DNA from: Balneicella halophila | GTDB lineage: Bacteria > Bacteroidota > Bacteroidia > Bacteroidales > Balneicellaceae | DNA: 64,000 bases | Reading direction: 5' to 3' | Assembly (NCBI RefSeq): GCF_003096835.1 | Contig: NZ_QENZ01000003.1 | Coordinates: 62,001 to 126,000, forward strand | Shown here: in pieces, positions 42,974 to 44,589 of the stretch | How the letters are laid out: the number at the start of each line of letters is the position of its first letter | How positions within the stretch are numbered: the stretch's first letter is position 1 | The notes under the pieces: model-generated | Database searches by the model: none | Seen by the model: only the letters and a program-made list of their open reading frames with translations | Told to the model about the DNA's origin: nothing | Position numbers and translations under genes: made by a program

Positions 42974-43003
42974 TTGTTTCACAAAAAATCTATCGTATAT
43001 TTG
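42974..43003 (+). promoter_or_regulatory. Promoter of the arsR-type operon
   Basis: TTG at 42974-42976, 19 bases, then TATATTTG at 42996-43003; the ATG follows at 43013. The -7 box is enclosed by the operator palindrome. Confidence 0.75.
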
Positions 43004-43008
43004 CGATA
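42991..43008. promoter_or_regulatory. ArsR-type operator 1
   Basis: TATCG-N8-CGATA palindrome with the -7 box TATATTTG as its centre, ideally placed to block RNA polymerase. The same arms and spacing recur at 43336-43353. Confidence 0.7.
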
Positions 43009-43012
43009 AACA

Positions 43013-43318
43013 ATGAAAAGAAGTTTAGAACATATCCAATACACGGATGATACTGAAACTTTGGCTAGATTTGCCAAAGCCTTAGGACATCCTACGCGTA
43101 TCACTATTCTGCAATATCTTGAAAAGCAATCTTGTTGTTTTACTGGAGATTTGGTTGATGTATTACCTTTTTCGCAATCTACCATTTCACAACATTTAAA
43201 AGAACTGAAGAACGCAGGGTTAATTCAAGGGGAAGTCAATCCTCCAAAAATAAAGTATTGTATCCATCAGGAAAATTGGAAAATAGCAAAACGTTTGTTT
43301 AAAAGCTTCTTTGAGTAA
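43013..43318 (+). CDS. ArsR/SmtB family transcriptional regulator
   Basis: 101 residues, winged helix. The recognition helix is in LPFSQSTISQHLKELKNAGLI. Ahead of it, KQSCCFTGDLVDVL offers two adjacent Cys near the ELCVC-type metal site of ArsR, so a thiophilic metal or arsenite is a plausible signal. Metal release from the regulator would free the operator that overlaps its own promoter. It heads an operon with a thioredoxin-like protein and a permease. Confidence 0.92.
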   Translation: MKRSLEHIQYTDDTETLARFAKALGHPTRITILQYLEKQSCCFTGDLVDVLPFSQSTISQHLKELKNAGLIQGEVNPPKIKYCIHQENWKIAKRLFKSFFE

Positions 43319-43335
43319 ATATTTTTTAATAACCG

Positions 43336-43353
43336 TATCGTTTATTGGCGATA
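43336..43353. promoter_or_regulatory. ArsR-type operator 2
   Basis: A second TATCG-N8-CGATA palindrome in the 52-base gap between the regulator and the thioredoxin-like gene. The centre (TTTATTGG) is not a consensus -7 box, so it may act as a second binding site or control an internal promoter. Confidence 0.6.
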
Positions 43354-43370
43354 AACTAAGAACAAAAATT

Positions 43371-43607
43371 ATGAGTAAATCTATCAAAGTATTAGGAACT
43401 GGATGTGCAAAATGCCAATCAGTAACGAAAGTCGTTAAAGACGCAATTTCCGAAAACAATATCGATGCTACAGTGGAAAAAGTAGAAGATATGATGGAAA
43501 TCATGAAATACAATGTCATGGTTACGCCTGCATTAGTTATAGACGGCGAAGTTAAAATAAAAGGCAGAGTTCCATCAAAAGATGAAGTGCTGAAATTTTT
43601 GAAGTAA
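43371..43607 (+). CDS. Thioredoxin-like redox-active disulfide protein (TM0996/MTH895 type)
   Basis: 78 residues starting at MSKSIKVLG; an upstream in-frame ATG at 43311 would read through operator 2 and is rejected. GTGCAKCQSVTK is the CxxC site and VMVTPALVIDGEVKIKG holds the cis-Pro. These very small thioredoxins are typically encoded with ArsR and a DUF318/ArsP permease. A likely role is thiol reduction for the metal or metalloid system. Confidence 0.9.
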   Translation: MSKSIKVLGTGCAKCQSVTKVVKDAISENNIDATVEKVEDMMEIMKYNVMVTPALVIDGEVKIKGRVPSKDEVLKFLK

Positions 43608-43614
43608 TATCCAC

Positions 43615-44589
43615 ATGTTTGATTGGTTACAAAATTTTGCTGACTGGCTTATCTACTCAGTCTTTGAAATTAGTGAAACAACTCGTTTGGGGACAGCACT
43701 CAATTTTTTCGTCTATGACACCATAAAGATTCTCATCCTGTTGTTTGTTATTATTTTCTTTATGGGTATTGTAAATGCTTACTTCCCAATTGAGCGGTTG
43801 AAGGATTATTTGCATCGAAAAAAACTATATGGCTTAGAATATTTTTTTGCTTCTCTATTTGGTGCAGTCACGCCGTTCTGTTCTTGCTCCTCCGTTCCAT
43901 TGTTTATAGGATTTGTTCAAGGAGGGATTCCTTTGGGAGTAACCCTTGCTTTTTTGATTACTTCACCCCTGGTCAATGAAGTTGCAGTAGCTATGTTCTT
44001 AGGACTATTTGGAGTAAAAGTAACCTTAGTTTATGCCATTTCAGGAATATTGTTGGGAACGTTAAGCGGGTGGATATTAAGCAAATTCAAGTTAGAGCCC
44101 CATCTTTCTGACTGGACAAAAGAGATTCTAGCAAAAAAAATGGAGCAAGTTAACTACCAAATTGATAAAAGAAGTTTTCTCCAAAGATTACCAGATATCA
44201 CACGATCAGCTTGGGATATTGTAAAAAATGTTCTCTTATATATCATTATCGGTATTGCCATTGGTGCAGCCATGCATGGTTATGTACCTGAAAATTTCTT
44301 TGATCAATATTTGGGTGGTGATGAATGGTGGACGGTTCCGCTGGCAGTTATTTTTGCAGTACCTATGTACGCCAATGCTGTTGCAATTGTTCCAGTTATT
44401 GAAGTTTTTGTGGCAAAGGGAGTACCTCTCGGTACTGCTATTGCCTTCATGATGGCAACAGTTGGTTTATCTATCCCTGAAGCAACCTTGCTGAAAAAAG
44501 TTATGACTTTTAAACTAATAGCAATCTTTTTTAGTGTAGTGACTCTCGCAATTATAATCTCTGGATATTTGTTTAATGCTATTCTTTAG
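43615..44589 (+). CDS. Permease of the ArsP/DUF318 (YraQ-like) family
   Basis: 324 residues with about eight membrane helices. VTPFCSCSSVPLFIGFVQGGIPLG carries the conserved CSCSS motif and TSPLVNEVAVAMFLGLFG follows. Family members export organoarsenicals or possibly other thiophilic compounds. It is 7 bases after the thioredoxin-like gene, ending the ArsR-controlled operon. The exact substrate is unknown. Confidence 0.88.
   Translation: MFDWLQNFADWLIYSVFEISETTRLGTALNFFVYDTIKILILLFVIIFFMGIVNAYFPIERLKDYLHRKKLYGLEYFFASLFGAVTPFCSCSSVPLFIGFVQGGIPLGVTLAFLITSPLVNEVAVAMFLGLFGVKVTLVYAISGILLGTLSGWILSKFKLEPHLSDWTKEILAKKMEQVNYQIDKRSFLQRLPDITRSAWDIVKNVLLYIIIGIAIGAAMHGYVPENFFDQYLGGDEWWTVPLAVIFAVPMYANAVAIVPVIEVFVAKGVPLGTAIAFMMATVGLSIPEATLLKKVMTFKLIAIFFSVVTLAIIISGYLFNAIL

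Follow-up and report, generated by a model that had tools for sequence, protein, structure and literature searches.

Balneicella halophila carries a small gene cluster that encodes an ArsR/SmtB repressor (arsR), a small thioredoxin-like protein (trx) and a permease. The cluster was analysed within a 64-kb stretch of DNA (the window) from the B. halophila genome assembly (2.09 Mb, 11 contigs, 98.2% complete). A glycerate kinase gene lies upstream of the cluster and a convergent PAP2 gene lies downstream. The gene products were assigned by profile search. The arsR product matched HTH_5 (PF01022) with 51 bits (cut-off 22) and the metalloregulator model NF033788 with 65.3 bits (cut-off 55), and the trx product matched TIGR00412 with 119 bits against a cut-off of 62. 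The permease scored below the cut-offs of SaoE (134.2 against 325 bits) and of the SO_0444 Cu/Zn exporter (CuZnOut, 104.3 against 300 bits). The genes and the sequence features discussed below are listed in Table 1.

Table 1. Genes and predicted regulatory features of the B. halophila arsR locus (positions within the 64-kb window).
Feature	Position	Strand	Remarks
-33 element of the arsR promoter	42974..42976	+	TTG; 19 nt before the -7 box
O1, predicted ArsR operator	42991..43008		TATCG-N8-CGATA, encloses the -7 box; upstream palindrome in 131/160 loci
-7 box	42996..43003	+	TATATTTG, inside O1, at its centre
arsR, ArsR/SmtB repressor	43013..43318	+	101 aa; recognition helix SQSTISQHL with Gln55; Cys41, Cys42, Cys83
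T-run	43322..43327	+	TTTTTT, candidate U-tract under halted RNA polymerase; ends 9-10 nt before O2; conserved
O2, second predicted ArsR operator	43336..43353		TATCG-N8-CGATA between arsR and trx, no -7 box; present in 112/160 loci
O2 right-flank element	43354..43359	+	AACTAA (family pattern nACnAA); kept in relatives
trx, small thioredoxin-like protein	43371..43607	+	MTH895/ArsE family; TIGR00412, PF13192
ArsP_1-type permease	43615..44589	+	324 aa; score above the PF03773 cut-off

Among the relatives of ArsR described below, Cys42 and Cys83 were present in 165/165 proteins and Cys41 in 144/165. From Cys42 and Cys83 we infer that the inducer would be a thiol-reactive metal or metalloid. A RexT-like cysteine pair was also considered and was rejected, because the pairs did not coincide when residues were counted from the published positions. 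A second ArsR was encoded elsewhere in the B. halophila genome (L164, C3:841671-843943). The gene of this paralogue lies at 842638-842967 on the minus strand, and its product has Gln at the same place of the helix. It is followed by the start of an SBF-family (PF01758) transporter, Acr3-like by eye, and the protein encoded between the two, arsC-like by eye, matches LMWPc below threshold (20.6 against 23.2 bits). Upstream of the paralogue gene stands ATCGCAATATTGCAAT, a near-version of the TATCG-N8-CGATA operator.

The preliminary description of this DNA had reported two identical TATCG-N8-CGATA sites, one of them centred on the -7 box of the regulator's promoter. Both statements were confirmed. 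The positions of O1 and O2 were exact, and the two sites were the only copies in the window; shuffled windows held 0.03 copies on average, and none of 100 shuffles held two. The whole genome was then covered by the same search. O1 and O2 were its sole exact copies. Places with one mismatch numbered 55 (O1 and O2 included), compared with 98 for a reversed-pattern control, so the near-matches were regarded as noise. A wider regulon in the genome was rejected, since the exact motif occurred at the arsR locus only and the one-mismatch count did not exceed the control. The repeat was longer than stated earlier: TATCGTATATTTGCGATAAAC and TATCGTTTATTGGCGATAAAC were identical at 19 of 21 positions.

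The promoter consensus of Bacteroidota is TTG-N19-TAnnTTTG. The sequence at O1 scored 9/9 against this consensus, and the best score at O2 was 7/9. The arsR ATG begins 9 nt past the -7 box, which makes an arsR messenger with little or no leader likely. In many close relatives O1 starts 19-24 nt ahead of the first matched arsR codon, and leaderless arsR messengers may be common in that class. At one locus (L010), O1 forms the core of a perfect 40-bp palindrome upstream of arsR.

The conservation of the two sites was investigated in relatives of ArsR. Two surveys of the order to which B. halophila belongs yielded matches in 49 of 60 and in 269 of 393 genomes, and the best 80 of at least 584 loci were added from named genomes. 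The closest named relatives among these best 80 were mostly Flavobacteriaceae with 81-83% identity, such as Kordia, Formosa and Maribacter. The main set contained 165 loci, made up of ArsR matches from the surveys and 38 usable hand-picked stretches, with duplicates dropped. Protein similarity was the criterion for choosing loci; L161 was the exception and was included for a motif seen before it. Full flanks were available for 160 loci, and these formed the base for counting the sites. O1 was found in 131 loci, O2 (behind the arsR stop) in 112, both in 95 and neither in 12. With symmetric arms only, the numbers were 129, 109 and 90 for O1, O2 and both. As a control, the remaining sequence of these loci held the same pattern at 0.136 sites per kb.

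The position of O2 was also conserved. When the distance was counted from the first stop-codon base, O2 most commonly started at 21 nt, and 86 of 116 O2 sites lay at 18-23 nt. An open reading frame on the plus strand started within 220 nt past O2 in 113 of 114 cases. Matches to both trx and the permease were found downstream in 12 of the 17 loci L033-L049, some with extra sequence between. A phylum set of 59 loci was assembled from 28 new loci and 40 picked outside family f136 (68 in total), minus 9 with already-seen proteins. O1 was present in 55 of them and a match behind the arsR stop in 29; a few of the latter, within or close to coding sequence, may be due to chance. Judged from these sequences, the two-site layout is real and generalises to many relatives.

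The arm letters of the operators were compared with residue 55, at the start of the recognition helix. This residue was Gln, Lys or Arg in all 165 proteins. Gln55 occurred with ATCG arms (A/A) in 64 O1 and 44 O2 matches, and Lys/Arg55 with TTCG arms (T/T) in 69 O1 and 71 O2 matches. The remaining 6 matches of the main set were asymmetric, and no symmetric exception to the rule was found there. The phylum set gave Gln with A/A arms 75 times, Lys/Arg with T/T 6 times, Asn with T/T twice and asymmetric arms 5 times; Asn with TTCG arms was seen at two loci only, L287 and L292. According to the accessible text of PMC8960804, Gln56 of NolR makes contact with A or T, and RexT, which has Lys at the matching helix place, binds ATTCG-N15-CGAAT.

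The set of more distant paralogues was what remained of 30 loci and 40 picked stretches once proteins already included were removed. Their upstream matches were Gln-A (2), Lys-T (8), Arg-T (1) and Arg-G (7). Arg was thus found with both T and G arms, so Arg alone does not set the arm letter. In the Arg-GTCG paralogues (L219, L224, L226, L233, L234, L241 and L242) the next residue is Thr in six and Ser in L224, and these seven are pointing to a wider recognition code. Another paralogue subfamily carries GACGTA/TACGTC-like repeats.

Residues 14, 34, 44 and 76 of ArsR likewise separate the arm classes. On the tree, 2 (supported) or 3 independent switches lie behind the residue 55-arm rule and the pairs agree, a number with which a phylogenetic test cannot reach significance alone. 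With other class-separating positions and about three switches, the rule is therefore strong as a label and weak as independent evidence. O1 and O2 co-occur around the relatives of ArsR. This recurrence of the layout, together with an arm letter that tracks residue 55, makes it very probable that the ArsR encoded between O1 and O2 reads both sites, in agreement with the earlier proposal of one binding protein.

The right flank of O2 was conserved as nACnAA at +17 to +22, with A18 in 84%, C19 in 88%, A21 in 91% and A22 in 78% of 116 sites. Its form differed by class: ACGAA was found in much of the TTCG class and AAAC[A/T]A in the ATCG class.

A further feature, missed by the preliminary description, is a T-run at a fixed distance before O2. 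T was present in 85-92% of 116 O2 sites at -13 to -11 (91-92% at -12 and -11). A T-run of at least 5 ending at -13 to -8 preceded 80 of 116 O2 sites; at O1 the count was 15 of 134, and at shifted positions 22 of 2079. The run keeps its distance to O2 and not to the arsR stop: it was found at 58 of 87 O2 sites up to 23 nt from the stop, at 18 of 20 sites at 24-35 nt and at 4 of 9 sites beyond 35 nt. Behind arsR, a T-run of at least 6 occurred in 5 of 48 loci without O2, compared with 74 of 115 with O2. When a gap of at least 40 nt was required, a T-run of at least 5 was found in 6 of 18 loci without O2 versus 68 of 92 with O2; the contrast was weaker but still present. In the phylum set, 13 of 29 O2 matches had the T-run ahead of them; family f136, which is over-sampled and more G+C-rich, had it at 1 of 11. 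A tree test of the link between T-run and O2 gave 11 supported independent pairs, with a mean of 5.1 changing the same way and 0.3 the opposite way (median p 0.06). The fixed distance points to a block on ongoing transcription.

The sequence before the T-run was searched for a terminator hairpin. In B. halophila its folding did not exceed that of shuffled sequence (z about -0.2). Taken together, the 87 loci whose O2 lies at most 23 nt from the stop lacked a hairpin signal (mean z +0.1), with 6 of 87 folding at -6 kcal/mol or better. O2 lay farther than 23 nt from the stop in 29 loci; 16 of them folded before the T-run at -6 kcal/mol or better, and several of these are plain hairpin-T-run terminators. 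Such loci are what would be expected if an intrinsic terminator followed arsR independently of O2 and the T-run were merely its U-tract. However, 58 of the close-O2 loci have a T-run although the set has no hairpin signal, and the spacing of the run is fixed to O2 rather than to the stop. An independent terminator is therefore quite improbable as the general explanation.

The earlier description had also suggested separate control of trx and the permease, with a transcript start near 43355. O2 would then overlap or just follow a second promoter, which ArsR would repress by occlusion. In the Gln class, the O1 spacer is mostly TANATTTG, which holds the -7 box, and the O2 spacers resemble YTTATTGG or TTTATTTG; O2 has lost the -7 letters that O1 kept. 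Full 9/9 promoters were found at 34% of 64 Gln-class O1 sites (background 4%) and at 0 of 45 O2 sites, and a score of at least 8 at 72% of the O1 sites (background 44%) and 20% of the 45 O2 sites (4%, a background that breaks up the T-run). These O2 scores mostly came from the T-run taken as a -7 box. Full 9/9 scores in the Lys/Arg class were reached by 41% of 70 O1 and 10% of 71 O2 sites (O2 background 2%), and 31% of the 71 O2 sites scored at least 8 (background 18%). The most frequent place of the -7 box in these O2 signals was immediately ahead of the operator (12 sites), which parallels O1. Some species of this class may thus have a promoter at O2.

The -33 place was also compared between the two sites. 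Before O1, a TTG peak was found at -18/-19 from the ATCG/TTCG core in both classes. Before O2, no TTG peak was found at this place in either class; its peaks lay at -22 and -26 for Gln and at -12 for Lys/Arg. The T-run as a -7 box, with TTG 17-21 nt upstream, occurred at 6 of 45 Gln-class O2 sites versus 1.9 in shuffles. The corresponding arrangement at promoter distance occurred at 3 of 71 Lys/Arg-class O2 sites versus 1.7 in shuffles. The TA and G of a -7 box are absent from the T-run in most sites. A second promoter is, on this evidence, unlikely. The suggested start near 43355 was not supported in B. halophila, where O2 reaches 7/9 and its class has no 9/9 site, and the idea of separate control keeps a weak signal in some relatives.

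Two other uses of the paired sites were considered. O1 and O2 have identical arms and lie 345 bp apart, and ArsR bound to both could form a DNA loop with tighter repression, as had been proposed. No 10.5-bp helical phasing of the O1-O2 spacing was found in 98 loci (R = 0.07), which argues against this proposal. At other periods, with relatedness among the 98 loci ignored, p was about 1e-4 at 9 bp, 0.003 at 11.5-12 bp and 0.055 at 11 bp; the nominal signals at 9 and 11.5-12 bp could not be linked to the helix turn. Looping is very improbable. O2 could also act as RNA, its hairpin protecting or processing the arsR-trx messenger. The palindrome does fold, with a mean z of -3.4 over 116 O2 regions, but any palindrome would fold. 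The arm letters change with the recognition helix at O2 as at O1, so the constraint lies in DNA binding. A role as RNA can hardly be expected.

O2 is located between the arsR stop and the co-directed trx, in a gap without a full promoter, and the T-run lies where the RNA end of a halted polymerase would be. A transcriptional roadblock is therefore the best explanation. With a probability of about 0.6, O2 would act as a roadblock that seals leak into trx and the permease, while O1 would serve to repress initiation. The T-run lies 9-15 nt upstream of O2, compared with the 14 nt reported for EcoRI-Q111, which according to the part of the literature consulted stops polymerase at that distance upstream of its site. 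ArsR on O1 would cover the -7 box and stop initiation at its own promoter (autorepression). ArsR on O2 would stand before an RNA polymerase that had leaked past O1, between arsR and the trx-permease pair. The polymerase would halt about 10-16 nt upstream of O2, over the conserved T-run, and the weak rU-dA hybrid there would favour its release. A hairpin ahead of the T-run would, in some relatives, complete an intrinsic terminator. The inducer would remove ArsR, and the blocks at O1 and O2 would lift together. The predicted outcome is a switch that responds more sharply, with arsR expressed at a low level and the efflux genes free of leak.

A more specific form of the roadblock is proposed tentatively. 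O2 and the T-run may form a ligand-controlled, protein-positioned terminator, in which bound ArsR parks the polymerase on the U-tract with no RNA hairpin and the metal releases the block. Some observations speak against a roadblock: the T-run is not universal, and 48 of the 160 loci lack O2. The conserved right flank of O2 is a feature for which a roadblock gives no explanation. The T-run could serve DNA shape instead; that the sense strand carries T and not A makes this less likely.

If the terminator proposal is true, Bacteroidota ArsR operons would contain a natural class of conditional terminator. The locus would be the natural counterpart of the engineered leak-sealing ArsR operator, with conserved parts that can be named (operator, T-run and spacing), and tests of roadblock termination would become possible in a native system of small size. 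For many unstudied ArsR proteins the residue-55 rule predicts the operators, and it could guide the design of biosensor parts for Bacteroidota. No account of the natural two-operator layout in Bacteroidota was found in the literature searched, which covered few subscription papers, so its novelty is provisional. ArsR roadblocks are already known from engineered biosensors, and the natural version proposed here is provisionally new.

An engineered ArsR biosensor with an added downstream ArsR operator was reportedly described by Stocker in 2003. In the accessible parts of later reports, added downstream ArsR operators lower the leak of biosensors (PMC6176005, PMC9134189, PMC5116461, PMC10310618), and ArsR is named as an E. 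coli roadblock (PMC10310618, section 5). As far as these texts describe them, such biosensors share with the present locus an ArsR operator downstream of the promoter and ahead of the controlled gene. They are man-made in E. coli, whereas the B. halophila layout is natural, has a Bacteroidota-type promoter and carries a conserved T-run before the operator. In the consulted part of PMC10310618, PurR, GalR, CcpA and CodY are described as repressors that block elongating polymerase from a position downstream of the start, as proposed here. These belong to other families, whereas the B. halophila protein would, as an autorepressor, stop polymerase on its way out of the regulator's own gene towards the target genes. 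For the LacI roadblock, the portion of one study consulted reports release mainly by Mfd. CmtR of Mycobacterium tuberculosis is, by the title of its report, which is the sole basis of this comparison, likewise an ArsR-SmtB autorepressor with multiple operator sites; in B. halophila one of the sites lies behind the gene. RexT of Nostoc and NolR, as presented in the accessible text of PMC8960804, have the same ArsR-SmtB fold, and the matching recognition-helix residue contacts the operator. RexT Lys50 with ATTCG arms resembles the Lys/Arg class found here, and the spacing of its inverted repeat is 15, compared with 8 in the operators of the present family.
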